The notes beneath the pieces were generated by a model, which did not search any database, was not told the DNA's origin, and worked only from the letters and a program-made list of their open reading frames with translations. The position numbers and the translations under genes are program-made. Below are positions 16,616-50,068 of a DNA stretch of 58,260 nucleotides, one piece after another; the first letter of the stretch is position 1; the number at the start of each line of letters is the position of its first letter. Source of the stretch: a bacterium (lineage in GTDB: Bacteria > Sumerlaeota > Sumerlaeia > MVZB01); contig JAJFUE010000020.1 in NCBI GenBank assembly GCA_021372575.1, forward strand, positions 1 through 58,260. The letters are read 5' to 3'.

Positions 16616-16634
16616 TTCGATTCACCCATTCAAC

Positions 16635-16668
16635 AAAAGGCGCGGCTTCGGCCGCGCCTTTTGCGTGT
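16635..16668 (+). terminator. Rho-independent terminator of the ribosomal operon
   Basis: A perfect 12-bp stem (16635-16646 with 16651-16662) encloses a TTCG tetraloop; the stem is AAAAGGCGCGGC and its complement, so the right arm ends in TTTT. It lies 20 nt after the rpsD stop and no ribosomal gene follows. The UUCG loop is exceptionally stable. This is the clearest terminator in the window. Confidence 0.93.
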
Positions 16669-16688: not shown

Positions 16689-16740
16689 TTCGTGTTCGTG
16701 CTCGTGCTCGTAATCGTAATTGTAATCGTAATTGTAATCG
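16689..16740 (-). repeat. Compound hexamer repeat, copy 2 (reverse)
   Basis: Read on the minus strand it is five CGATTA/CAATTA units followed by CGAGCA, CGAGCA, CGAACA and CGAA. The order of blocks is the same as in the other copies. It lies between the ribosomal terminator and the first small secreted gene. The rest of the 16669-16861 gap shows only a possible TATACT -10 box at 16833-16838 without a convincing -35. Confidence 0.85.
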
Positions 16741-16861: not shown

Positions 16862-17170
16862 ATGAACGCTTTGGGCCATCAGGGCCGGCTTTGGCGCAGG
16901 GGTCTGGTTATCATCATTTCCCTCATGCTCGGATTTGGCCTGAGCGGATGGGCCTCGGGTGTTGCCAGCTCCACGTTCAGGATCGTGCTGGACGCCGTCG
17001 GCTGCGGCGGAGGCTCCTCGAGTTCCGCCCATTACCTCCAGATGGACAGCGCCGTCGGCCAGGATTCCCCGGCCGGCCTCGCCGCCAGCGCTTCATATTC
17101 CGATAATTCCGGCGCCGTCCAGGCGTGGCCCGTCATTCGAAATGCAGTCGATGAATGGAGCAGATACTGA
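16862..17170 (+). CDS. Small secreted protein, GGGSS/HY family, partner of the first repeat protein
   Basis: From ATG 16862 (GGAG at 16850-16853) the product is 102 aa. Residues about 1-36 form a long basic-then-hydrophobic signal sequence. The mature part has STFRIVLDAVGCGGGSSSSA, then HYLQMDSAVGQDSPAG, and ends NAVDEWSRY. The pattern resembles a short module found in many bacterial secreted proteins, in which S-x-Y-x-L strands are followed by GQDSP. No enzyme motif is seen. Its TGA shares its A with the ATG of the next gene, so the two are probably coupled. A paralogue lies at 19514-19801. Function unknown. Confidence 0.8.
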   Translation: MNALGHQGRLWRRGLVIIISLMLGFGLSGWASGVASSTFRIVLDAVGCGGGSSSSAHYLQMDSAVGQDSPAGLAASASYSDNSGAVQAWPVIRNAVDEWSRY

Positions 17171-19365
17171 TGTTTGTTCGCAGTTCGATTGCGCTTTCCC
17201 TTTTCATCTCGCTCGCAGCCACCGCTTTCGCCGGCCCTGGCATGATCCAGTATCAGGGCCGCCTCACCGATTCGGCCGGCAACCCGATCACCACGGCCGT
17301 CAACGTGACGTTCACGTTCTGGAGCGCGGCCACCGGCGGCAGCCAGCTCGGCGGGTTCAGCGACACCGATTCCGTGACGCCCAACTCGCAGGGCCTTTAC
17401 TCGACGATGATCGGCGACGATCCGGGCACGAAGATCCCGGACGCGGTCTTCACCAGCCCGCAGGTCTGGCTCGACATTCAGGTCGGCTCCGAGCACCTCT
17501 CCCCGCGCAAGCAGATGGTCGCCACCGGCTACGCGTTCCAAAGCAACTGGGCCACGACCGCCACCGCGTCGCTGGACACCCTGGCGTCGGTTACGGGCCG
17601 CGGCTCATCGACAACGAAGGAACTGACGCTGAGTGGCGGCGTGAAAACGGCCAAGATTTCGCCTCTCAGCGCCGGCGGCAGCGTGCAGGTGGAAAACGTC
17701 TATATGGTCGGCGGCGGCATCGCGCTGCCGGTCATCGCGCCGCCCGCATCGCCCGCCAACAAAATCTATTTCACCAGCGGGACGCTTTACTGGAACGGCA
17801 CGCGCGTCATGCTCGCCAAGGGCGAGAATTACATGGTCGTGTATGCGACTTCGGACCCGGCAGCCAACGGCAGGAACCTGATCTCCACATACGCCTGTGC
17901 CAAGGCGCTTCGCCCGCATGGGAACGATCTGACGACGACCAATCGCGCCGTCGTTGTGGTTCCGCCGGGCCGGTATCAGCTCGATCAAAACAAATTTGTC
18001 CTCGATGCCGAGTATGTTGACCTGGTCGGGCTCACGACCGACCGCCAGAGCCAGTTCATTTATGGAAACCTGGATGCTTCTTCTGCGGTGCTGGTCCGCC
18101 AGGCCGCGGACGACATCCGTATCGAGAACCTGTTCCTCGATGCCTCGTGCCCAACCGAGCAGATCATCCCGCCGGCCGCGTATGACGCCGATGCGAGCAC
18201 GACGCACACCATCATCCGCAATTGCGAATTCTCCGGCCGGGGCAAGGCGTTTTCGATGTCGATCGGCGCCAGCAGCGCCGGCTATTATGAGAACGTCAAG
18301 GCCGGCCGCGGTTCATTCGGATACACTACGAATGCCGCCGGGACCTACATCAATTGCGAGGCGGAATTGTTCAGTTTCGGCTCCCTGGGCGCTGCCAGCG
18401 GATCCTTTACCAACTGCAAGGCCGGCCATTATTCGTTCGGCTATAAAAGCCCGGCCTCCGGGACCTTTAACCGCTGCACCGCCGGCAATTACAGCTTCGG
18501 TCATATGAACACCGCCGCCGGCACGTTCACCGATTGCATCGGCGCCTATGGCGCCTTTGCCTATCAGGGCACCGCCAGCGGCAAATTCTTCCGCTGCGAG
18601 GGCGGGGGAAAATCGTTCGCCGCCGAAGGGACGGCCAGCGGAACGTTCGAGCATTGCACAGGCTCGCAATACGCGTTCGGGTATAAGGGAACGGCCAACG
18701 GCACGTTCACCCGCTGCAAGGCCGAGGCCAATGGATTCGGCTACCTCGGGACCGCCGGCGGCACGTTCACCGATTGCGCCGGCGGCGATTGGTCTTTCGG
18801 CAGTATCGGCACGGCCGGCGGCAAGTTCGTCAATTGCACCGGGACCGCGTTTTGCTTCGGTTTCGCCGGCACGGCCAGCGGCGCCTTTGTCGGCTGCTCC
18901 GCGGACGGGTATTCATTCGGGACCGGCGACTACAACACCGCCGCGCTCGCCAGCGGCTCGTTCACCAATTGCATCGGCGGCGGCTGCTGTTTCGGCGCGG
19001 GCGGCGGCGGCAGCGTCATCACGACGATGAACGGCACGTTCACCAACTGCATCGGCGGCGGCCACTCTTTCGGCGGTCAATACGCCAACAATGCCGGCGC
19101 GCGCCTGCAGGGCTGCACCATGAACAGCACGACGTGGTGGGGCACGTGGTCCGGCCAGATGGAAAACTGCCGCTGGGCCTCCGACCTCAATTTGAGCGCC
19201 ACGGCCCGCATTTACAATTCGACTTTCCTCGCCACGCTGAATCTGGTCAACACCGCCGCCGGCGTGACCCAGAGCCGGGCCCGTTCGATCGTCAACGACG
19301 GCAACAACCTTTTCGGCGCGACGAATGACGCCGCCATGAACATCGAAAACGCCAATATCCAGTAG
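17170..19365 (+). CDS. Secreted 20-residue-repeat beta-helix protein, paralogue 1
   Basis: I start at ATG 17170, overlapping the previous stop, since it gives a clean signal peptide ending TAFA before GPGM; ATG 17155 adds five residues. The 731-aa product has a domain of about 110 residues starting IQYQGRLTDSAGNPITTAV, a short linker, and a section with VPPGRYQLDQNKFVLDAEYVDLVGL and IRNCEFSG that looks like a pectate-lyase-type beta-helix. From residue about 378 there are ten regular coils of AGxxSFGxxGTASGTFxxCx, then three longer coils and a conserved end (ARIYNSTFL... NLFGAT... VQ). One Cys closes each coil. No membrane anchor or sorting tag is visible. Probably exported by Sec; binding role unknown. 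Confidence 0.85.
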   Translation: MFVRSSIALSLFISLAATAFAGPGMIQYQGRLTDSAGNPITTAVNVTFTFWSAATGGSQLGGFSDTDSVTPNSQGLYSTMIGDDPGTKIPDAVFTSPQVWLDIQVGSEHLSPRKQMVATGYAFQSNWATTATASLDTLASVTGRGSSTTKELTLSGGVKTAKISPLSAGGSVQVENVYMVGGGIALPVIAPPASPANKIYFTSGTLYWNGTRVMLAKGENYMVVYATSDPAANGRNLISTYACAKALRPHGNDLTTTNRAVVVVPPGRYQLDQNKFVLDAEYVDLVGLTTDRQSQFIYGNLDASSAVLVRQAADDIRIENLFLDASCPTEQIIPPAAYDADASTTHTIIRNCEFSGRGKAFSMSIGASSAGYYENVKAGRGSFGYTTNAAGTYINCEAELFSFGSLGAASGSFTNCKAGHYSFGYKSPASGTFNRCTAGNYSFGHMNTAAGTFTDCIGAYGAFAYQGTASGKFFRCEGGGKSFAAEGTASGTFEHCTGSQYAFGYKGTANGTFTRCKAEANGFGYLGTAGGTFTDCAGGDWSFGSIGTAGGKFVNCTGTAFCFGFAGTASGAFVGCSADGYSFGTGDYNTAALASGSFTNCIGGGCCFGAGGGGSVITTMNGTFTNCIGGGHSFGGQYANNAGARLQGCTMNSTTWWGTWSGQMENCRWASDLNLSATARIYNSTFLATLNLVNTAAGVTQSRARSIVNDGNNLFGATNDAAMNIENANIQ

Positions 19366-19513
19366 CTCGAATAAGTTGCGCGCCCGCGGGCATTCTGATA
19401 GTTTAGAGCCATATTTAGATGTAAATAAACGCGTCTTTTGGAATTTCGGCCGAATCAACCGATCCGTCGATCGTTGATCCGGATGGCTTCGAATTTCTAT
19501 TGAGGTCAGCGGC
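19366..19513. other. Intergenic region between paralogue 1 and the second small secreted gene
   Basis: The 148-nt gap is AT-richer than its surroundings and could hold a promoter, since TTTAGAGCCATATTTAGATG and nearby A/T words occur at 19399-19425. No -35/-10 pair with good spacing can be defended. No hairpin with a T-run follows paralogue 1, so readthrough is possible. Confidence 0.4.
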
Positions 19514-19801
19514 ATGAACACGAAGACGTGCCTGTGCATCATCGCGCTCGCGGCGCTGCTCGCGGGCGGATCGCGCGCGTTGGCCGGTTCGCAAAGCGCG
19601 CACTACGTCGTTTCCATCGATGCCGTCGCAAGCGGCGGCGGCTCATCGGCATCCAGTCATTACATGCTTCTCGACAGCTCCGCCGGCCAGGATTCGCCGG
19701 CGTTGGGCGCCTCCTCCGGCACAAAAAAGGAGAACTCCGGCGTCATCCAATACTGGCCGTTTTTCAAAAACGCGGCCCGCGATTGGACTTGTTACGAATG
19801 A
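19514..19801 (+). CDS. Small secreted protein, GGGSS/HY family, second copy
   Basis: The 95-aa product has a signal peptide (MNTKTCLCIIALAALLAGGS..., cleavage near ALAG) and the mature module SQSAHYVVSIDAVASGGGSS, SHYMLLDSSAGQDSPAL, SGVIQYWPFFKNAARDW. Aligned with the 16862 protein it shares DAV.GGGSS.S.HY, GQDSPA and SG..Q.WP..., so they are paralogues. It lies 22 nt before paralogue 2 and is likely co-transcribed with it. Function unknown; it may be a secreted partner of the large protein, but only gene order supports this. Confidence 0.8.
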   Translation: MNTKTCLCIIALAALLAGGSRALAGSQSAHYVVSIDAVASGGGSSASSHYMLLDSSAGQDSPALGASSGTKKENSGVIQYWPFFKNAARDWTCYE

Positions 19802-19823
19802 AACATGAGAAAGGGGACATGCC

Positions 19824-21962
19824 ATGACGCTCCGCGCCTTCATCATCGTTCCGGCATCGTTGCTGCTCATGGTCGTCATCCCCGCCTTGTCCTTTGCCGG
19901 CCCGGGCCTCATCCAGTACCAGGGCCGCCTCACCGACCCGGCAGGCAATCCGGTCACCACCCCCGTCAGCATCACGTTCACGTTCTGGAGCGCGGCCACC
20001 GGCGGCACGCAGCTCGGCGGCACCTACTACGACACCGATACCGTCACACCGAATTCGCAGGGCCTCTTCTCGGCGATGATCGGCGACGAGACAGGGGCGA
20101 AAATCCCGGACTCGGTGTTCAACAGCCCGCAGGTCTGGCTCAATGTCAAGATCGGCAGCGAAAACCTCTCGCCGCGCAAGCAGCTCGTCGCCGTCGCGTA
20201 TGCGTTCCAAAGCGCCTCGAGCGCGCTGGCCACGACCGCGACGACCGCGATCTCGGCGAAAACGGCGACTTCCGCATCGACGGCCAATGTTGCCGCAAGC
20301 GCGTTTTCCGCACAGTCCGCGGCGACGGCGCTGCAATCCAACTGGGCCATGCAGGCCAACTGGGCGACGACGGCCACCACGGCGCTCTCGGCCAAATCAG
20401 CACCCGAAGCCGATACCCTGGCCAGCGTCACCGCCCGCGGCGCCTCAACAAGCAAAGAACTCACGCTCAGCGGCGGCATCAAGACGGGATCCGTCTCCGC
20501 GCCCACGAGCACAGGCAGCGTCAATCTCGAGGACGTCTCGTTCAGCAACGGCATCATCACGATCCCGTCCGTCATCCCGCCGTCCAGCGTCACCAACAAG
20601 CTTTACCAGTATAACGGCGGGCTTTACTGGTACGGCACGCCCGTCATGCTCACGCGCGGCATGGCGTATCTGTATGTGACCACGACCGCCGATCCCGTAA
20701 CGAACGGCCTGTATCTGAAACAGACCTACGACTACGCCAAGATGCTCAAGCCATACGGAAAGGATCTGTCCACGACCAACCGCCTCACCGTCCTGGTCCC
20801 GCCCGGCCATTACGACCTCGCTGCGTCTCCGTTGGTTCTGGATGCCCAGTTCATCGACCTGGTCGGCGTCTCGAGCGTACGCAACGACCAGTATCTGTAT
20901 GGGTATATGACCGACTTCGATGCGGCGCTCGTGCGGGTAACGGCCAGTGACGTGCACATCGAGAACCTGTTCATCGAGGGGACGAGCCCTAACCTCTACA
21001 TCCGGCCTCCCGCCGCATTTACCGCCGAATCCAACACGACGGGGACCGTTGTGCGCAACTGCGAGTTCTCCGGCAAGGACAAGTGCGTCGCCATGGGCCT
21101 GGAGAGAAACTACCCGGGCTATTACGAAGATTGCAAGGCCGGCGACAGCAGCTTTGGTTACAAGGGCGCGGCCAGCGGGACGTTTATCAACTGCAAGGCG
21201 GGCTTCTACAGTTTCGGATACAACGGTCAGGCAAACGGCACTTTCACCAACTGTTCGTCCGGCGGAACCTCGTTTGGTGCATACGGCAAGGCTAATGGGA
21301 ATTTCACGCACTGCATCGGTACATTTTTTTGTTTTGGATACAACGGCGTTGCAAGCGGCACGTTCACCGAGTGCGTGGGCATCGGGCAAAGCTTCGCTTC
21401 CTACGGCACGGCCAGCGGAAAATTCATCAATTGCAGCGCCGGCGATTTTTCATTCGGTTACAACGGAACCGCCAGCGGCTCGTTCACCGGTTGCACCGCG
21501 GGCGCGTCGTCATTCGGCTCGGGAACCTACAGCATAGCCGGACACGCCAGCGGAACATTCACCAATTGCAGCGGCGGCAATTATTCGTTCGGCGCCGGCG
21601 GTAGCATCAGCCTGCCTTCATATGCGACCGGTACCTTTATCAATTGCGTCGGCAACATGAACTCCTTCGGCGGGTATTACAGCAATAATGACGGCGCCCG
21701 CCTTCAAGGCTGCCGCATGACCGGTAGCATCTGGTATGGCGAATGGGCGGGCCAGATGGAAAATTGCCGCTGGGGAACAGGCCTTGTCCTGAAAGCCTCC
21801 GCGCGCATTTACGGCTCAACTTTCCTCGGGAATCTCAACCTGAACGGTACGGCGGCGGGCGTCACCCAATGCCGCGCCAAGGCGATTCTCAGCTATGCCA
21901 ACAACGTATTCGGCGCGACCCATGCCGCCGCGCTGAATATCTCAAACACGAATGTCCAGTAG
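19824..21962 (+). CDS. Secreted 20-residue-repeat beta-helix protein, paralogue 2
   Basis: The 712-aa protein has a signal peptide cleaved near ALSFA before GPGLIQYQGRLTDPAGNPVT. Unlike its relatives it has an Ala/Ser/Thr-rich insertion of about 65 residues (about 130-195, with ATTATTA, SAKTATSAST, AASAFSAQSA) after the first domain, a possible coiled or stalk segment. The pectate-lyase-like section and then, from residue about 438, six regular SFG coils and two longer coils follow, ending GDGARLQGC-like and FGATHAAALNI...VQ. GAAAGGGGAC upstream at 19808-19817 gives a usable ribosome-binding site. Confidence 0.85.
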   Translation: MTLRAFIIVPASLLLMVVIPALSFAGPGLIQYQGRLTDPAGNPVTTPVSITFTFWSAATGGTQLGGTYYDTDTVTPNSQGLFSAMIGDETGAKIPDSVFNSPQVWLNVKIGSENLSPRKQLVAVAYAFQSASSALATTATTAISAKTATSASTANVAASAFSAQSAATALQSNWAMQANWATTATTALSAKSAPEADTLASVTARGASTSKELTLSGGIKTGSVSAPTSTGSVNLEDVSFSNGIITIPSVIPPSSVTNKLYQYNGGLYWYGTPVMLTRGMAYLYVTTTADPVTNGLYLKQTYDYAKMLKPYGKDLSTTNRLTVLVPPGHYDLAASPLVLDAQFIDLVGVSSVRNDQYLYGYMTDFDAALVRVTASDVHIENLFIEGTSPNLYIRPPAAFTAESNTTGTVVRNCEFSGKDKCVAMGLERNYPGYYEDCKAGDSSFGYKGAASGTFINCKAGFYSFGYNGQANGTFTNCSSGGTSFGAYGKANGNFTHCIGTFFCFGYNGVASGTFTECVGIGQSFASYGTASGKFINCSAGDFSFGYNGTASGSFTGCTAGASSFGSGTYSIAGHASGTFTNCSGGNYSFGAGGSISLPSYATGTFINCVGNMNSFGGYYSNNDGARLQGCRMTGSIWYGEWAGQMENCRWGTGLVLKASARIYGSTFLGNLNLNGTAAGVTQCRAKAILSYANNVFGATHAAALNISNTNVQ

Positions 21963-22007
21963 GCAGGTTTCGCCGAACGGCGCCATTGAAAAAAAAGGCG
22001 GTGCCCG

Positions 22008-24167
22008 ATGTTTCGCATGCTCATCGATCGCGCGGCGGTCGTGATCGGCGTGATGCTGATCAGCTCGGCGGCTTTCGCCGGCCCGGGCCTCATCCAGTAC
22101 CAGGGCCGCCTCACCGACCCGGCCGGCAACCCCATCACAACCCCCGTCAGCATCACGTTCACGTTCTGGAGCGCGGTCACCGGCGGCACGCAGCTCGGCG
22201 GCACCTACTACGACACCGATACCGTCACGCCGAATTCGCAGGGTCTCTATTCGACGATGATCGGCGACGAGACAGGGACGAAAATCCCCGATGTGATCTT
22301 CACGGCGCCGCAGGTCTGGCTCAACGTCAAGATCGGCAACGAAAACCTCTCGCCGCGCAAGCAGATGGTCGCCACCGCTTACTCGTTCCAAAGCAACTAC
22401 GCCACCACCGCCACGATGGCGTTGGACTCAAAGGACACGCTGGCCAACGTCGCCGCGCGCGGCGCCTCGACAAGCACTGAGCTGACCCTGAGCGGCGGCG
22501 TCAAGACCGGCAGCATCTCGGCCGCCACCACCGGCGGAAGCGTGCAAATCGAGGACGTTGCGCTCAGCGAAGGCGCCATCAAGCTGCCCCCCATCACCTC
22601 CCCATCCAACGTCAGCGGCAAGCTCTACCAGGCAGGCCAGATGCTTTATTGGTATGGCATCCCCGTGATGCTCACGCGCGGCACCGCCTATGTATATGTG
22701 TCCACCACGCCCGATCCTGGTGCGAACGGCTTGAATCTGCGGGCGGCTTACTCGTACGCCAAGACGCTCAAGCCTCACGGCAAGGACTTGTCCACGTCCA
22801 ACCGCCTGACTGTCCTCGTTCCGCCCGCGCGCTACGACCTGACCGCGGCGCAGCTCGTTCTGGACACCCAGTTCATCGACCTCGTCGGCGTCTCGACGGC
22901 GCGCCATGATCAATTCCTGTATGCCAGGATGAGCACGAACGGCGCAAGCCTCCTGCGCCAGACGGCGGGCGACGTCCGCATCGAGAATCTCTTCCTCGAG
23001 GGGACATGCAACGCCGTTTTACCAACTCCCACGTCTGTGTATTACCCCGACTCCGGCACGACCCAAACCGTCATCCGCAATTGCGAGTTCTCGCCCATCG
23101 ATCAATGCGTTTCGATGGCGTTTTACGTCGATTACCCGGGCCGCTACGAAAACTGCAAATCCGGCCGACTGAGTTTCGGCTACCACGGCCGCGCCAGCGG
23201 AACCTACATCAATTGCGAAACCGGCAATTTGAGTTTCGGCTCCCACTCCTACGCCAGCGGCGCCTTTATTGAATGTTCCGCGGGAAACAGCGCCTTCGGT
23301 TATCACGGCACGGCGAACGGCTCTTTCGATCGATGCACGGCCGGCTATTATTCATTTGGTTACTATGGCACGGCCAGCGGGACGTTCAGGGATTGCTCGG
23401 CCACGAACAGCTCGTTCGGGAGCTACGGCACGGCCAGCGGCACGTTCCAGAACTGCACGGCGCAGGATGCGTCATTCGGCGGCTACGGCACCGCCAGCGG
23501 CACGTTCCTGCAATGCAACGCCGGCAACAGCTCGTTCGGGTACTACGGCACGGCCGGCGGCAAGTTCACCAACTGCACGGCCAAGGAATACAGCTTCGGC
23601 TCGATGGGCACGGCGGCCGGCGGCGTCTTCACGAACTGCTCGGGGCGGAACTACTGCTTCGGCCATGCCGGCACCGCCAACGGCACATACGAAAACTGCT
23701 CGGCCTATTCCTACTCCTTCGGCGGCGGCAGTGAAACCAAGGCCGCCACCGCCAGCGGAACGTTCAGAAACTGCAAGGCGATCAACTCTTCATTCGGCTC
23801 CGCCCAGATCAGCACGCACCCGAAATGCACGTGCAGCGGCCTTTTTATCAATTGCGTTGCGGACAATTATTCGTTCGGCGCCATCAATTCGGATAATTCC
23901 GGCGCGAGGCTCCAGGGCTGTCGCGTGAACTCCACATGGGCGGGATACTGGGGCGGCCGCATGGACAACTGCTGGATCGGCTCGGGGATCGTTTGCACGG
24001 CAACAGCCCGAATCTACGGCTCGACGTTCATCGGGTCGATCAACTTGAACAACACGGCCGCCGGCGTCACCCAGTCCCGCTGCAAGGCGCTGATGAATTA
24101 CGGCAGCAACGTCTTCGGCGCAACACCCGCCGCCGCCATGATCATCGCCGACGGCGACGTGCAGTAG
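22008..24167 (+). CDS. Secreted 20-residue-repeat beta-helix protein, paralogue 3
   Basis: The 719-aa product begins with a signal peptide ending SSAAFA and the shared GPGLIQYQGRLTDPAGNPIT domain. The pectate-lyase-like part contains LTVLVPPARYDLTAAQLVLD and IENLFLEGTC. From residue about 384 there are nine regular coils, one with an extra residue, and then longer coils (one with the KCTCSG insertion). The DNA of its first 340 bases after the signal peptide is nearly identical to paralogue 4. It follows paralogue 2 by 45 nt with no partner gene between. Confidence 0.85.
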   Translation: MFRMLIDRAAVVIGVMLISSAAFAGPGLIQYQGRLTDPAGNPITTPVSITFTFWSAVTGGTQLGGTYYDTDTVTPNSQGLYSTMIGDETGTKIPDVIFTAPQVWLNVKIGNENLSPRKQMVATAYSFQSNYATTATMALDSKDTLANVAARGASTSTELTLSGGVKTGSISAATTGGSVQIEDVALSEGAIKLPPITSPSNVSGKLYQAGQMLYWYGIPVMLTRGTAYVYVSTTPDPGANGLNLRAAYSYAKTLKPHGKDLSTSNRLTVLVPPARYDLTAAQLVLDTQFIDLVGVSTARHDQFLYARMSTNGASLLRQTAGDVRIENLFLEGTCNAVLPTPTSVYYPDSGTTQTVIRNCEFSPIDQCVSMAFYVDYPGRYENCKSGRLSFGYHGRASGTYINCETGNLSFGSHSYASGAFIECSAGNSAFGYHGTANGSFDRCTAGYYSFGYYGTASGTFRDCSATNSSFGSYGTASGTFQNCTAQDASFGGYGTASGTFLQCNAGNSSFGYYGTAGGKFTNCTAKEYSFGSMGTAAGGVFTNCSGRNYCFGHAGTANGTYENCSAYSYSFGGGSETKAATASGTFRNCKAINSSFGSAQISTHPKCTCSGLFINCVADNYSFGAINSDNSGARLQGCRVNSTWAGYWGGRMDNCWIGSGIVCTATARIYGSTFIGSINLNNTAAGVTQSRCKALMNYGSNVFGATPAAAMIIADGDVQ

Positions 24168-24227
24168 CAACGCATGCAGCAGCTCGATCGTAAACGAGAG
24201 ACTTGATATCCACAAGGCAGGTGCCCC

Positions 24228-26249
24228 ATGCTTCGCCAATTCTCCCTGATCGCCCTTCTCCTTGTTGCCGCTCCATCCTTTGCCGGCCCCGGACTGATTC
24301 AATACCAGGGCCGCCTCACCGACCCGGCCGGCAACCCCATCACAACCCCCGTCAGCATCACGTTCACGTTCTGGAGCGCGGCCACCGGCGGCGCGCAGCT
24401 CGGCGGCACTTACTACGACACCGATACCGTCACGCCGAATTCGCAGGGCCTCTATTCGACGATGATCGGCGACGAGACAGGGGCGAAAATCCCCGATGTG
24501 ATCTTCACTGCGCCGCAGGTCTGGCTCAACGTCAATATCGGCAGCGAAAACCTCTCGCCGCGCAAGCAGATGGTCGCCACCGCTTACTCGTTCCAAAGCA
24601 ACTACGCCACCACCGCCACCGCCTCGCTGGACACGCTGGCCGGCGTCACCAGCCGCGGCGCTTCGACGGGCAAAGAGCTGACCCTGAGCGGCGGCGCGAA
24701 GACCAACAAGATCTCGCCCCTCACGCCCGGCGGCAGCGTCCAGGTCGAGGGCGTGTACATGATCGCCGGCAGTGTCGCGCTGCCGGCGATCGCCCCGCCG
24801 GCCTCGACGGCCAACAAGGTTTATTTCGCCAATGGCAGTCTGAACTGGCAGGGCGTTCCCGTCATGCTCATGCGCGGCGAAAACTACATCGTCGTGCAAA
24901 CCACGTCCAATCCCGTGACCAACGGCAGCAACCTGGTTTCGGCCTACCATTACGCCAAAACCCTTCGGCCGAACGGCCAGGACCTCGAGACCTCCAACCG
25001 GCTGACGGTCCTCGTGCCGCCGGGGCTTTACCAACTGACGGCGGGCCAGCTGACGCTGGACGCCGAGTTCGTCGATCTGGTCGGCCTCTCGACCGCCCGC
25101 GCCGATCAATATCTGTTCGGCAACCTGACCGCGGAGGGCACCAGTCTCGTTTGCCAGTCCGCCAACGATGTCCGGATCGAGAACCTGACGATCGCCGCCA
25201 CGTGCGCCACTTATTATTCGACCAAACCCGTCGCGTATTTCCCAGAATCGAACAGGACCCGGACCGTCATCCGCAATTGTGAATTCATCGGCAACGACCA
25301 TGCCGAGTCGATGCGCAAGGGAGTCGATTACCGCGGCCGTTACGAGGACTGCACGGCCGGCTCATTCGCCTTCGGCTACTACGGCGCGGCCAACGGCCAA
25401 TTCATCCGGTGTAGCGCCGGCACCAACAGTTTTGGCAACCACGGCGCGGCCAGCGGAACATTCATCGATTGCTACGCGGGCCCCAGCAGTTTCGGATCGA
25501 CCGGCGCCGCAAGCGGCTCGTTCACGGGATGCACGTGTTCAGGCAGCGGATTTGGGGTTTACGGATCGGCCACGGGAAAGTTTGTCAATTGCACGGCGGG
25601 CGTCCGGAGTTTTGGCTGCGAAGAAACGGCCGGCGGCACCTTCGAAAATTGCGTGGCCGGCGACGATTCCTTCGGCATGAACGGTGTCGCCAGCGGCATC
25701 TTCATCAATTGCCGGGGCGGAGATCATGCCTTTGCCCATTGCGGAACGGCCAGCGGAACATTCACGAATTGTGCCGCCGGGACGTATTCGTTCGGCGCCG
25801 GCAGTTCCGTCGTGCCCGGGATCGCCAGCGGGACGTTCACAAACTGCACGGCCAGCGGTTACTCGTTCGGCGCCAGCACGTTCTTCGACGCGGACAGCAC
25901 GAAATCGACATGCAGCGGCACGTTCATCAACTGCGTCGGGGGATACAAGTCCTTCGGCGGCGATCGCAGCTTCAATAGCGCCGCCAAACTGCGCGGCTGC
26001 CACATGAACAGCTCCACCTGGTCCGGCACATGGTCCGGCACGATGGAAAATTGCCGCTGGAACGCCGGCGTCACCTGCGACGCCTCGGCCCGCATCTACG
26101 GCTCGACTTTCCTCGGCACGCTGAATCTGAACCACGTGGCGGCCGGCGTGACCCAATGCCGTGCCCGTGCCATTGCCAATTCGGAAAACAACGCATTCGG
26201 CGCCACCAACGCCGCGGCGTTCAACATCGCCGACGGGGACGTCCAATAG
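24228..26249 (+). CDS. Secreted 20-residue-repeat beta-helix protein, paralogue 4
   Basis: The 673-aa protein is the shortest of the four. Signal peptide MLRQFSLIALLLVAAPSFA is followed directly by GPGLIQYQGRLTDP. Seven regular coils start at residue about 376, then two longer coils and the conserved C-terminal block with STWSGTWSGTMENC and FGATNAAAFNIADGDVQ. Some coils carry additional Cys (SFGCEE, FAHCGT, SGCTCSG). The linker (ATTATASLDTLAGVTSRGAST) resembles that of paralogue 1 more than 3. No terminator is evident before the next gene at 26333. Confidence 0.85.
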   Translation: MLRQFSLIALLLVAAPSFAGPGLIQYQGRLTDPAGNPITTPVSITFTFWSAATGGAQLGGTYYDTDTVTPNSQGLYSTMIGDETGAKIPDVIFTAPQVWLNVNIGSENLSPRKQMVATAYSFQSNYATTATASLDTLAGVTSRGASTGKELTLSGGAKTNKISPLTPGGSVQVEGVYMIAGSVALPAIAPPASTANKVYFANGSLNWQGVPVMLMRGENYIVVQTTSNPVTNGSNLVSAYHYAKTLRPNGQDLETSNRLTVLVPPGLYQLTAGQLTLDAEFVDLVGLSTARADQYLFGNLTAEGTSLVCQSANDVRIENLTIAATCATYYSTKPVAYFPESNRTRTVIRNCEFIGNDHAESMRKGVDYRGRYEDCTAGSFAFGYYGAANGQFIRCSAGTNSFGNHGAASGTFIDCYAGPSSFGSTGAASGSFTGCTCSGSGFGVYGSATGKFVNCTAGVRSFGCEETAGGTFENCVAGDDSFGMNGVASGIFINCRGGDHAFAHCGTASGTFTNCAAGTYSFGAGSSVVPGIASGTFTNCTASGYSFGASTFFDADSTKSTCSGTFINCVGGYKSFGGDRSFNSAAKLRGCHMNSSTWSGTWSGTMENCRWNAGVTCDASARIYGSTFLGTLNLNHVAAGVTQCRARAIANSENNAFGATNAAAFNIADGDVQ

Positions 26250-33493: not shown

Positions 33494-33718
33494 ATGTTCG
33501 AGCCGATTTCCCTTGCCGAGCGGCTGCGGCGCGAGTCCCACCGCATCAGCGCGCTCATCCTCAATTCGGACCTGCCGTGGATCGACATCGAAATCCAGAT
33601 CGGCGCCATGCGCGACATGTGCGAGACCGAAGCCCCCGAAAAAGCCGAGCTGTTCGACGCGATATATACCAGCCGGTTCTATAGGCTTAAAGAGCAATGG
33701 CGGGGAGACAATGAATGA
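33494..33718 (+). CDS. Small hypothetical protein (74 aa)
   Basis: ATG 33494 has GAGGTGG at 33484-33490. The product is helical and charged (LAERLRRESHRISALILNSD, MCETEAPEKAELFDAIYTSRFYRLKEQW), has no signal peptide or Cys cluster, and I recognise no family. Both the strong ribosome-binding site and perfect -10 support a real gene. Its TGA at 33716-33718 overlaps the start of a mirrored GAAATTCG repeat. Confidence 0.6.
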   Translation: MFEPISLAERLRRESHRISALILNSDLPWIDIEIQIGAMRDMCETEAPEKAELFDAIYTSRFYRLKEQWRGDNE

Positions 33719-33890
33719 AATTCGAAATTCGAAATCCGAAATCCGAAACAAATCCGAAATAAGAAATCCGAAATAATTCCTTAACAAAAACGAAGAACGT
33801 ATCAAGTATAGGGAATTGTTTATTCGAATTTCGGATTTCGAATTTGTTTCGAATTTCGATATTCGAATTTCGGATTTATTTCGAATTTCT
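33717..33890. repeat. Mirrored pair of GAAATTCG/GAAATCCG arrays at the ends of two convergent genes
   Basis: Left array 33717-33780 is made of GAAATTCGAAATCCGAAAC-type words. The right array 33811-33890, read on the minus strand, has the same words in the same order (GAAATTCG, GAAACAAATTCG, AAACAATTCC at the end). A 30-nt spacer lies between. It is AT-rich in a GC-rich genome and forms one long imperfect hairpin. Both genes flanking it end inside it: the small gene (33718) and the ATPase (33876). Confidence 0.85.
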
Positions 33891-35123: not shown

Positions 35124-35915
35124 CTAGCGGGAGCGGTTTTTCGGAAGGATTACGGAATCGGGATGATGAGAGTCGTCAGGGGTGCGGGGTATATCGGCTG
35201 ATTCGGATGATCCGACGAATCGGACGGATGTTTCCTGGGATTCGGCAGAGGATAAATCGTCGGCATCGGGGCGCGGGGGGATTTCCGCGCAGCGTTCTTC
35301 GAGGTAAGGGATCATGCGCTCGAGTTCGCGGTTGATGCGTTCGACGGATAGCGTGGGAAGAACGGGGACTTCGCGGAGCGAAGGGGTTTCGGGGAGAGAA
35401 GGAGCGCGGTCGGTGGTGGTGGGTTGACGGTGGATTGTGGGATGTGGATCGGGAATCGTGGATGGGAAATCGGGCAAGGCGGAGTACATCTGGAACGAAG
35501 GGGATAGATCGAACGAAGGGGAGAGTGCCGATCGCGAGATCGGCGTTCCCATGGCATCAGGCGTTAGGTTCGTAGTGCCGCCTTCAGGCGGAAAAAGGAC
35601 GGATGAGAGGTGTGTTCCGTCTGAAGGCGGGACTACGGACGGGGCGGGGGGAATGGGACCTATGGGACTTATGGGGCCTATGGGACTCATGGGAGAATCG
35701 GGAGGTGTGGGAGGATTGGAGAGTTTGTTCGCGAGAAAGGCCATGTGGAGAAGAGACTTGTGAATCGAGGCCACGCGGGCGAGGTCGTCGATCATGTAGT
35801 TGAGCGTGCAAACATCGGGGCACTGGTCGAGCGAGTCAAGATCTTTAAACCAGAGCTTGAGGAGGCGCTCGGCGATCGAGAGGGAAACGGAGAGGTCGGA
35901 GAGGTCGGTGATCAA
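35124..35915 (-). CDS. Hypothetical protein containing translated dispersed repeats
   Basis: The 263-aa open frame has a plausible globular N-terminus (LAERLLKLWFKDLDSLDQ, CTLNYMIDDLARVASIHKSL, about residues 10-65). After that it contains PMSPIGPISPIGPIPP, which is the 9-nt ATGGGACTT repeat translated, and PPSDGTHLSSVLFPPEGGTTN, which is the CCGCCTTCAGGCGG palindromic repeat translated. Later parts are rich in Pro and Ser. I recognise no family. Either a real small gene has been extended by repeat insertions, or only the N-terminal part is functional. Confidence 0.45.
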   Translation of the reverse strand: MITDLSDLSVSLSIAERLLKLWFKDLDSLDQCPDVCTLNYMIDDLARVASIHKSLLHMAFLANKLSNPPTPPDSPMSPIGPISPIGPIPPAPSVVPPSDGTHLSSVLFPPEGGTTNLTPDAMGTPISRSALSPSFDLSPSFQMYSALPDFPSTIPDPHPTIHRQPTTTDRAPSLPETPSLREVPVLPTLSVERINRELERMIPYLEERCAEIPPRPDADDLSSAESQETSVRFVGSSESADIPRTPDDSHHPDSVILPKNRSR

Positions 35916-35927
35916 AGTGCTTAGTCC

Positions 35928-36499
35928 TGAGTGCTGAGTGCTGAGTCCAGAGTGTCGAGTGCTTGGTGCTTAGTTTGATGGGTCTTATGGGTCTTATGGG
36001 TCCTATGGGTCCTATGGGTCCTATGGGTCCTATGGGTCCTATGGGTCCTATGGGTCCTATGGGTTGCGATATTCTTCGTGGTCATTGGGGTGATTGCGGC
36101 GTGGTCGCGTTTTGGCAAACTGAAGTTTGAACTCCTGACTGAAATTCCGGCTCCGAATGCGGGGGCGCCGCATTCTGGGGGAAATCGTAAAACAGTTTTT
36201 TAAAAAGAGGTATTCCCATAGCGACCCTTACGGACCTTAGGAAACTTAATTTTAAAAAAAATGAAAAAATTTTGCGGATGAAGTGGACCAAGTGGACGGA
36301 GGGAACAAGGACGTAAAGGACGAAAAAGGACCAAAGGGGAAATGGACGGATTGGACTGAATGGACCAAAGGATCGTGTTAGAGCGAGTGACAAAAGTCTT
36401 GAGGCAATCGCCGTAATCGAAATGGGGCTCGGTTTCGAAGTTCGGTGCTGATTCGATTACGATTACGATTACGAGCACGAGCACGAGCACGAACCGATA
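35928..36499. repeat. Cluster of four repeat families in a gene-free stretch
   Basis: The 629-nt stretch 35916-36544 holds no credible gene. In order it has TGAGTGC/TGAGTCC heptamers (35928-35975), ten TCCTATGGG nonamers (35977-36064), GGAC-led words such as GGACTGAATGGACCAAAGG (36289-36370), and copy 4 of the compound hexamer repeat (36454-36499, three CGATTA and three CGAGCA units plus CGAACCGATAAC). Positions 36190-36270 are AT-rich without obvious features. Confidence 0.85.
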
Positions 36500-39497: not shown

Positions 39498-41666
39498 TTA
39501 CCGGATCCGGTAAAGAATCATGTCGTTGGGTGGGGTGCCGTGGCTGTCGATGGGAACCAGACGGAGATCGGCGCGGGTTTCGTTGCCGGTCGGCAGCAGC
39601 GCTTCGAAGCGGCGGATTTGGCCGGGTTGCAATCTGGGCACAAAGTACATTTTGTAATACTGGTTCAGCTCATATCGATTGTAGAAGATATAGCGGACAT
39701 TATTGGCAAGCAATAAATCGAGCATGGCGTCGTTGGTTGGGGCCCGGCGGAACCACGGCACGGGTTGCGGGGTGTCGAAAAAGTCGCTGACCACGATCGG
39801 CAAATCAAAATACAGGGGCCGGTATTCCCCAATCAGGAGCGCCTTTTCGCCGGGGGCGGCATGGCGGCTCAGCCAATGCGCCGATTGCCAGTAGGGGAGC
39901 GTGTGGGCCAGGTAAACGTCGCGCTTCTGGAAGCCGAGGGCGGTTGCCAGCGCATCGGCATTGGACGAGCCGCGGCCGTTGGGCATGAGCATGAACGTCA
40001 CGTAAAGCGCCAGGGACAGCAGGATCGCCGCCCCGGCCACGGCGCGGATCGCGAGCATGGCTGCCGTGCCGGCGCGTTCCCAACCGGCACAAGCCACCGC
40101 CGCCCAGGCCAGCAGGATCGCGATCGTCGGGAACAGCATGCGACTGGACTGGTAGGTTGCAAACCAGAACACCCACGAGATGACCAGGACGAGGTAGAGG
40201 AACCACTGAGTCCTGAGTCCTGAGTGCTGAGTCCTGAGTGAAAGAGACCCGGCCAGCGCGACCAGCAACGCGATGAGCGGGAGCGGGCCGAGGATGTGGT
40301 TCTCGAAGAGGTCCGGGCGGAAGGTTGCCTGGTAGGGCGAGGCGAGGAACTCGACCGGGGCGGCGATCGGGCGCGGCCATGAGGATATCTTGAAGCCCTT
40401 TTCGCCGGCCTTCTCCATGTAGAACTTTTCCTCGGCCGCGGTCCAGTCGCCGCCGTCGAAGTGCTTGATCGCGAGCGGATAGACGGGGTTGCCGGTCCAG
40501 GCGGCGTTGCGCAGATACCACGGCGAGGCGAGCGCGAGGCCGAGGAGACCGGCGAGGAGAGCCCTTGCGATTGACGATTGACGATTGACGATTGACGATT
40601 TGAGATTCAGCGCGAACCAGATGAGGCCGAGCAGGCCGATCAGCGCGAGCATCGTGTATTTGACGCTGAGGGCGCCGGCGATCATGAAGCCGAGGATCAC
40701 GCAGCGGCGGCGGCCGGGTCGCGCCAGCGACGCTGCGCCAACCAGCGTGAACGCGAGGAAATAGGCCACAACGAACAGGTCGATGAACGCCCATCCGGCA
40801 AGGATCGCGACCGACGGGCTCGCCGCGAACGCGGCCGCGGCGGCAAGAGCGTGGCCGGGCGATTTCCTGATCCCGCTCCAGCGCATCCAGCGCAGCGCGA
40901 GCAGGAAAATGAGCGACATCGAGACGGGGAGCATGCCGAAGTGGACGACCTGCGCGGCCTCGTAGCCGCCGGCGGCCATCGCGAGCATGAACAGCATTTC
41001 GCCGAGGAACGGGAAGTTCGAGAACGCCTGGTGCGGCAGGTAATGGATGCGGCCGTCGCGCAGCCACTCGGCCGGCGCGGCGACGTGATATCGCAGTGCG
41101 TCCGACTGCACGACCGGCGAAAGGGCGTAGGGGATCGCCAGCGCAAAGACAATCAGGATGAGAACGATCGAGAAAAGTTGGAGCGAGGAAATCGTGCGTT
41201 TCGGTCCCGGGCGGCGGCGATGAAACCAAAGCCCCCAACCGGCGGCGGAAGACACGAACAGGAAAACCAAAAGGGCCCTCATGTTGGCACGGGACGCGAG
41301 CCCGGCCAGCCCAACTGCAAGCGCAAGCAAGGAGACCGGCACGGCTCCGATCAGCGGCGACAGGACCAAAGTTTCAATCGGCGCGAAGATCCGTCGCCTC
41401 GGGCTCAGGAAGTGGATGATGGTCAGCCCGATTCCGGTGATCGTGAACAGGACGGCCGCGCCGGCCGCGAGCGCGAAAAGCGATTCGGTCGGGAAATGCC
41501 AATCGCCGCGCCACGGCCCGCCCACGTCGCGGATGAGCCAGATTCCCCAGTTGATGTCGCGCGCCTGCATGATTAGGACCGCGGCCGAGAGCGCCAGCGC
41601 GATCAGCAGGGCGGCATAACGGGCGAGGGAAGTAACCGGCCGGTTCGTCATGACCAAATTGAACAT
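39498..41666 (-). CDS. Large membrane protein, GT39/ArnT-like glycosyltransferase (inferred), with two translated repeats
   Basis: The 722-aa protein has at least eleven hydrophobic segments and a first loop after the early segments with DALRYHVAAPAEWLRDGRIH, placed like the catalytic Asp loop of GT-C enzymes, then ASPWYLRNAAWTGNPVYPL. A C-terminal soluble part of about 150 residues follows the last segment. Such enzymes use polyprenyl-phosphate sugars in the periplasm. Two loops contain repeats read in frame: LKSSIVNRQSSIAR (TTGACGA heptamers) and LSLRTQHSGLRTQW (ACTCAGG heptamers). Confidence 0.72.
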   Translation of the reverse strand: MFNLVMTNRPVTSLARYAALLIALALSAAVLIMQARDINWGIWLIRDVGGPWRGDWHFPTESLFALAAGAAVLFTITGIGLTIIHFLSPRRRIFAPIETLVLSPLIGAVPVSLLALAVGLAGLASRANMRALLVFLFVSSAAGWGLWFHRRRPGPKRTISSLQLFSIVLILIVFALAIPYALSPVVQSDALRYHVAAPAEWLRDGRIHYLPHQAFSNFPFLGEMLFMLAMAAGGYEAAQVVHFGMLPVSMSLIFLLALRWMRWSGIRKSPGHALAAAAAFAASPSVAILAGWAFIDLFVVAYFLAFTLVGAASLARPGRRRCVILGFMIAGALSVKYTMLALIGLLGLIWFALNLKSSIVNRQSSIARALLAGLLGLALASPWYLRNAAWTGNPVYPLAIKHFDGGDWTAAEEKFYMEKAGEKGFKISSWPRPIAAPVEFLASPYQATFRPDLFENHILGPLPLIALLVALAGSLSLRTQHSGLRTQWFLYLVLVISWVFWFATYQSSRMLFPTIAILLAWAAVACAGWERAGTAAMLAIRAVAGAAILLSLALYVTFMLMPNGRGSSNADALATALGFQKRDVYLAHTLPYWQSAHWLSRHAAPGEKALLIGEYRPLYFDLPIVVSDFFDTPQPVPWFRRAPTNDAMLDLLLANNVRYIFYNRYELNQYYKMYFVPRLQPGQIRRFEALLPTGNETRADLRLVPIDSHGTPPNDMILYRIR
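40206..40242 (-). repeat. ACTCAGG heptamer array inside a coding sequence
   Basis: Five TGAGTSC units (plus-strand view) lie within the membrane-protein gene and keep its frame open. They encode the loop LSLRTQHSGLRTQ between two membrane segments. It is the same family as the map-infA arrays at 12837-12972. Confidence 0.8.
40568..40598 (-). repeat. TTGACGA heptamer array inside a coding sequence
   Basis: Four heptamers (GATTGAC in the plus-strand view) are translated as SSIVNRQSSIA in a loop before a membrane segment. Three units of seven bases are seven codons, so the array keeps frame when it grows in threes. Confidence 0.75.
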
Positions 41667-41679
41667 GAAAGCCGCAAAG

Positions 41680-42045
41680 AACGCAAAGGCAGGATTTAAT
41701 GGTACTCAGCCGCCCGTCGGTGGCATACGCAACCGACGTGATGAACCCGAACGGAAATCTAAATAGTCAAACGTCGCCGATATTCCGAAGAGAAATCAAT
41801 TCGCTCGGATGAGGCTTGTGGAGTATTGCGCGTTTAAGGAGAGGCTGGGAGAAGTGGTGAGGAAAGGGACGTAAAGGACCAAAGGGACCAAAAGGGGCGT
41901 GGGGGAAGGGGAAGAATGGGAATGATGGGAAGAATGGGAAAAATGGGAATGAGGGCTATAGCGGTGAGCGGGAAGCGGAATAATTAAAGGATAGTTTTTC
42001 GATTACGATTACGATTACGAGCACGAGCACGAGCACGAACCGATG
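41680..42045. repeat. Repeat-rich intergenic region with compound hexamer copy 5
   Basis: The 381-nt gap 41667-42047 has no gene. It contains GCAAAGAACGCAAAGG words (41670-41695), GGACGTAAAGGACCAAAGGG words (41866-41898), GAATGGGAA words (41912-41953), and copy 5 of the compound repeat (42000-42045; three CGATTA, three CGAGCA, tail CGAACCGATGAC). The compound copy ends 3 nt before the stop of the next minus-strand gene. Confidence 0.8.
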
Positions 42046-49931: not shown

Positions 49932-50068
49932 TCGTGCTCGTGCTCGTAATCGTAATCGTAATCGTAATCGAACCGGCTCGGACTTGCTATAGTGGTTCTG
50001 AAAAGTTTTGTCCGAGAAGTTCTGTCGCGTCTCACGATTACGATTACGATTACGAGCACGAGCACGAG
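49932..50068. repeat. Mirrored pair of compound hexamer repeats (copies 6 and 7)
   Basis: Copy 6 (49932-49970, minus orientation, four CGATTA units then CGAGCA) faces copy 7 (50035-50068, plus orientation, three CGATTA units then CGAGCA). They can pair as a duplex of about 33 bp with a 64-nt loop. Inside and beside them another short inverted pair (TTTTGTCCG at about 50006 and CGGACAAAA at 50070) extends the stem. The structure separates rmlA from rmlC. Confidence 0.9.

Follow-up and report, generated by a model that had tools for sequence, protein, structure and literature searches.

The stretch of DNA analysed here (58,260 nucleotides, contig JAJFUE010000020.1, hereafter the window) belongs to the 4.63 Mb genome of a Sumerlaeota member, a little-known bacterium of soil and sediment, and carries four tandem paralogous genes, P1 to P4, at positions 17155-26249, all on the + strand and coding for proteins of 673-736 amino acids (aa). 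Open reading frames (ORFs), alignments and coil counts gave P1 (17155..19365, 736 aa), P2 (19824..21962, 712 aa), P3 (22008..24167, 719 aa) and P4 (24228..26249, 673 aa). The four proteins have in common a signal peptide, an N-domain of ~105 residues, a shaft, a conserved cap, 20-residue SFG coils and a C-terminal block, and P1, P3 and P4 are 56-61% identical to P2 over their full length. The shaft of P2 contains an extra Ala-rich segment at about residues 131-196. Two small genes for secreted proteins that are 44% identical, HY1 (16862..17170, +, 102 aa) and HY2 (19514..19801, +, 95 aa), stand ahead of P1 and P2, the second with a spacing of 22 bp. P1 probably starts at the ATG at 17170, sharing a TGATG with the HY1 stop. 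An earlier note on this DNA had described four adjacent paralogues with common parts, preceded in the first two cases by small secreted proteins and placed directly after a ribosomal terminator, and each of these points was recovered.

The regular 20-residue coils number 10 in P1, 6 in P2, 8 in P3 (plus one of 21 residues) and 7 in P4, in agreement with the range of about 6 to 10 given in the earlier note, and past them come longer coils of 25-29 residues and then the common C-terminal block. Identity at a lag of 20 residues was 0.33-0.41 compared to 0.09-0.11 in shuffled sequences (z = 11.5-16.2). The coil positions G1, F13 and A19 are fixed in 31/31 coils and C6 in 30/31; these strongly conserved positions are the probable core. 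Positions 10, 11, 15 and 16 are highly variable, with an aromatic (Y/F/W/H) share of 39-58% at positions 11, 15 and 16, and the variation between copies is scattered, probably at exposed positions.

Cap, coils and C-terminal block, which we call the tip, were then considered at the level of the fold. The AlphaFold model of P3 (me5049fced72a), a prediction that the earlier note had proposed as a check, exhibits a beta-helix that begins at residue ~225 and runs almost to the end; its predicted local distance difference test (pLDDT) score is mostly above 90 apart from a dip at ~411-430, and it covers the cap (225-361), the coils (378-625) and the C-terminal block (626-719), encoded at 22680..24164 (+). 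In P1 the cap and coils, placed with a hidden Markov model (HMM) of the cap and the coil count, extend approximately over 17821..19074 (+). The section that had been called pectate-lyase-like is thus confirmed as a fold and not as a family: a scan of the array proteins with Pfam and NCBIfam showed no enzyme family and no pectate lyase, and membership of the pectate lyase-type enzymes was rejected since there was neither a Pfam match nor a significant match to a solved fold. The nearest PDB folds, all at E 1e-3 or weaker, are inulin lyase, AlgE6 epimerase, alginate lyase and the K2-2 and Sf6 tailspikes. These neighbours would fit secreted enzymes that degrade or modify polysaccharides, the beta-helix being a lyase, epimerase or depolymerase like those of phage tailspikes and not an adhesin. 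We consider this unlikely, because no enzyme family was returned, near-identical repeats in variable number are unlike a single active-site cleft, and the copies vary at scattered, probably exposed positions.

Relatives of the tip were found among phages. The top viral structure match of the P3 model is a protein of an uncultured Caudovirales (E 7.5e-12, 29% identity). In a scan with the tip alignment, relatives fell mostly in uncultivated viral contigs (115 stretches); the cellular ones are secreted proteins of Hydrogenedentota, Verrucomicrobia and Kiritimatiellae, and further ones in Bacteroidota look like prophage copies, judged by their N-termini. A single-protein pattern scan of the genome contigs had found no relatives, whereas the alignment scan did find them. 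The similarity to viral proteins is not driven by the repeats, since an HMM of the non-repetitive cap alone, built from cellular proteins, reached viral-contig matches down to ~1e-37. In 3/10 viral proteins scanned, PHROG tail-fibre or minor-tail segments are attached to the coil module, for the most part on its N-terminal side. The homology with phage-contig proteins in a tail-fibre context covers cap and coils, and the tip only. With P0003 as tblastn query there was no match against annotated phages, so that the link to phages rests on uncultivated viral contigs, and one weak match against plasmids, to a protein annotated as pentapeptide-repeat. In the cap tree, which is rooted at the midpoint only, the four window proteins form one clade (100/98). 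The cellular sequences group together (95/77), one long viral branch among them, and viral sequences spread more deeply around this group; the tip is shared with phages and may derive from them. Two verrucomicrobial homologues (L049, 2242-4905, and L051, 7098-9791) carry two cap-plus-coil domains in tandem per protein.

A tip module common to phages might suggest that the array is left over from a prophage or tailocin, with fibre genes duplicated by chance. This explanation is scarcely credible and already largely refuted: the proteins have signal peptides, no phage genes lie nearby, housekeeping genes flank the array on both sides, and cellular homologues with a similar base occur across several phyla. 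The composition of the array (GC content 0.62, GC3, at third codon positions, 0.79-0.84) also matches that of the flanking genes, and a recent foreign origin was likewise found unsupported.

The N-domain, or base, lies directly behind the signal peptide. Residues ~25-130 are beta-rich in the alignments and the model, with strands at 29-120 and pLDDT mostly 83-95; in P1 it spans residues 27-131 (17233..17547, +) and in P3 it is encoded at 22077..22394 (+). Bdellovibrio is a bacterial predator whose surface adhesins are held by the base of the mosaic adhesive trimer (MAT) proteins. Excerpts of the description of these proteins in Bdellovibrio bacteriovorus report a ~130-aa beta-rich domain after the signal peptide, joined to exchangeable tips (PMC10769870). 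The NCBIfam model of this domain, NF053851 (Bdello_MAT_N), matches six genes in our genome, namely P1 to P4 (P1 with E 7e-4) and genes on contigs C29 and C146, and 0/14 control genomes. We write MAT-like and not MAT because the scores lie under the curated cut-off; the base weakly matches the family and, as judged from profiles, is not assigned to the superfamily. The N-domain is modular: on C29 a 73-79% identical N-domain is joined to a propeller-type tip, on C146 it carries yet another tip, and further tip types occur in relatives, the mosaic architecture of the MAT superfamily. A search with the N-domain profile showed MAT-like domains in 25/41 genomes. Homologues of Hydrogenedentota and Kiritimatiellae have a phage-type shaft (NPHxVTxAQVGLGxVDNT repeats) between MAT-like base and coils. 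A coil protein of Hydrogenedentes (L053) lacks the MAT-like base and has a lipoprotein-type signal in its place, as if the job of the base were anchoring.

Synonymous sites distinguished base and tip. Between paralogues, four-fold degenerate sites differ by 0.10-0.27 in the N-domain compared to 0.45-0.51 in the rest (Fisher p 0.02 to 3e-7); between P3 and P4, 6/58 of these sites differ in the N-domain and 83/180 in the rest. The synonymous sites of P3 and P4 are almost identical across codons 40-140, with the signal peptide and the later regions diverged. This low divergence does not reflect a general constraint, since the N-domain of C29 differs from all four paralogues with a proportion of synonymous differences (pS) of about 0.5. 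The simplest reading of these comparisons is a gene conversion confined to the base, by which the bases stay alike and the tips are free to diverge, and the contrast is as expected of a conserved base with diversifying tips. It bears also on a further explanation, that the proteins are passive structural fibres or a surface coat, a matrix or cell-wall scaffold that binds no specific ligand and for which the coil number would matter to length only. Low-complexity repeats with strongly conserved probable core positions and a varying coil number would suit such a scaffold. Together with the high variability and aromatic share of the positions named above and the fusion of homologous modules to phage tail-fibre segments, the contrast between base and tip nevertheless makes it hardly probable.

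The small HY genes were followed in other genomes. HY1 has a signal peptide, a DAV-x2-GGGSSSS-x-HY-x5-GQDSP motif and a C-terminal W-x2-Y. With a narrow profile built solely from the two window proteins (matches at E < 0.01), nine matches were found in other genomes of the class, 3/9 of them within 1 kb of a MAT-like gene compared to a chance expectation of 0.02 under uniform placement; 3 more are so near a contig end (about 900 bases or less) that a neighbour may be missed. With a wider profile, 9/32 further matches lie within 2.5 kb of a MAT-like gene (0.2 expected), the sequences used for the build being left out of the count, in which some bias stays as members were partly found near MAT-like genes. 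Neighbouring HY and MAT-like genes were seen in further families of the class as well as in a genome of Hydrogenedentota and in prophage-like contigs. HY stands directly upstream of the MAT-like gene in genome G009 (adjacent ORFs), on our own contig C146 (overlap) and in genome G026. The Hydrogenedentota genome has two HY-then-MAT loci with a gap of ~40 bp and, by eye, dockerin-like segments behind HY. An HY-like gene also lies immediately ahead of the MAT-like gene in IMG/VR contigs that carry a gene for an S49 peptidase, an arrangement suggestive of a pair carried as cargo. Secreted HY-like and MAT-like pairs were seen in prophage-like IMG/VR contigs at L221:2284-4515, L223:766-2937 and L225:2343-4293, the last with the S49 peptidase gene and a probable capsid gene upstream. 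After the coil gene, Hydrogenedentota and Kiritimatiellae show a second possible partner, a different secreted protein with a signal peptide and an NTDGA..NPDGAWLSLSP motif (L052:3200-4363, L055:9006-9449, L054:3348-4097, L048:9661-10167).

HY might be an unrelated, common secreted protein that stands beside MAT-like genes by accident, as HY-like domains also stand alone (e.g. L203 in genome G014) and the coil genes of the genome SSF23 (Candidatus Sumerlaeaceae, Sumerlaeota, same class) have no HY. This is very improbable given the excess of neighbours over expectation with both profiles and the recurrence of the HY-then-MAT order, in which the two genes overlap or stand no more than about 40 bp apart. 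The predicted HY structure is of low confidence (pLDDT 44), and the leading guess is a role in docking or assembly of the base. A wider proposal, which we hold tentatively, is that HY may serve the MAT-type base as its dedicated partner in secretion or docking, in a two-gene HY and MAT system of several phyla that would display exchangeable phage-fibre tips and also travel as prophage cargo.

Taken together, the array probably encodes MAT-like chimeric surface fibres whose phage-type tips would attach to glycans or surfaces. Each fibre would be exported by Sec and held at the cell surface by the conserved N-terminal beta-domain, a base for which HY is the probable partner. We infer that the beta-helix, derived from phages or shared with them, is carried outwards by an Ala-rich or beta shaft that is most likely a trimer; this helix consists of the conserved cap, then 6-10 of the 20-residue coils, and the C-terminal block that closes it. 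The exposed variable coil positions, often aromatic, may serve for attachment to glycans or to other surfaces, such as those of other cells, particles or a host. The repertoire would grow by tandem duplication, gene conversion keeping the bases alike while the tips diverge in sequence and coil number. Several results weigh against this. A PDB fold search gave nothing at E 1e-3 or better, so that the proposed binding function has no anchor in a solved relative. NF053851 scores are 19-28 bits (20-23 in the genome search, up to 28 for single proteins) compared to the cut-off of 60, the shaft (P3 residues 122-193) is of low confidence in the AlphaFold monomer model, and there is no detectable HY partner at the closest coil relatives (SSF23 and most Hydrogenedentota).

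Upstream of the array, Pfam identified rpoA-rplQ-rpsD, followed by a strong rho-independent hairpin terminator (16634..16663, +; fold -27.3 kcal/mol, z -5.25). The downstream flank contains a hydroxyacid dehydrogenase, a cytidylyltransferase and an LptF/LptG-type permease (Pfam), the last of which suggests that the host is a lipopolysaccharide-bearing diderm. Two transcription units, HY1-P1 and HY2-P2-P3-P4, are likely from gene spacing, which is the sole basis of this reading because no sigma-70-like promoter was found in the array region. The gene order in relatives, also raised in the earlier note, recurs for HY-then-MAT but not for the position of the array: the five coil genes of SSF23 lie in three unrelated places, and a conserved genomic position was rejected. 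A dispersed repeat, TGCTCGTAATCGTAAT (<=1 mismatch), has 332 copies genome-wide compared to 0 for the reversed control; copies in the window lie at 16690-16740, between rpsD and HY1, and at 36454-36492, 42000-42038 and 49944-49970. Short tandem repeats with 7- and 9-base units, e.g. ATGGGTCCT x 9.7, were found at 33717-33889, 35653-36064, 40206-40239 and 41909-41950.

A base similar to that of the MAT proteins occurs here in uncultivated phyla, bears tips that phage proteins not yet named also have, and repeatedly has a small gene for a secreted protein beside it. The cap-plus-coil tip has no family in Pfam or PHROGs and yet 115 viral-contig relatives, and describing it would name a family of probable phage receptor-binding proteins. 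HY is a concrete, testable candidate partner for a surface base. According to the excerpts of the MAT description, the ligand of the N-domain at the predator surface awaits identification (PMC10769870); the two-gene reading, if true, names a surface partner for such a base.

The earlier note had suggested a possibly new surface system. The results fit a repeat-based surface fibre or adhesin accompanied by small secreted proteins, and no characterised coil family came to light that has these partner genes. The array is, however, not a wholly new kind of system, because the base resembles, under threshold, the MAT N-domain, phages share the tip, and HY accompanies MAT-like bases elsewhere. With pentapeptide repeat proteins (PF13599) the coils share a length of 20 residues and, in two paralogues, a weak match (E 3e-4 to 5e-4), but the score is 21 bits compared to a Pfam gathering score of 38 and there is no 5-residue period (lag-5 identity 0.07-0.09), and membership was rejected. 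HY proteins align to the N-terminal third of the CPR-type pilus protein PamT (NF058579; E 1e-3 to 3e-3), but with 17-18 bits compared to a cut-off of 240, with no full-length match above it and in an array without pilus genes, so that HY was not identified as PamT. Phage tail fibre and tailspike beta-helix proteins (uncultivated Caudovirales, BFVD A0A6J5PWE7; IMG/VR L060-L138) have a homologous cap and SFG coils in varying number, and some phages join these to tail-fibre or minor-tail segments; in the array the tips are instead joined to a Sec signal and a MAT-like base, and the locus is not that of a phage. The MAT superfamily (NF053851), as far as the excerpts of its description go, likewise has several copies in one genome and shows no HY-like partner (PMC10769870). 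The array differs from it by N-domains far under the curated cut-off in another phylum and by an SFG-coil beta-helix as tip, with no S74 or TNF/C-type-lectin tip seen, and it presents a tandem arrangement with homogenised bases and an HY-like partner.
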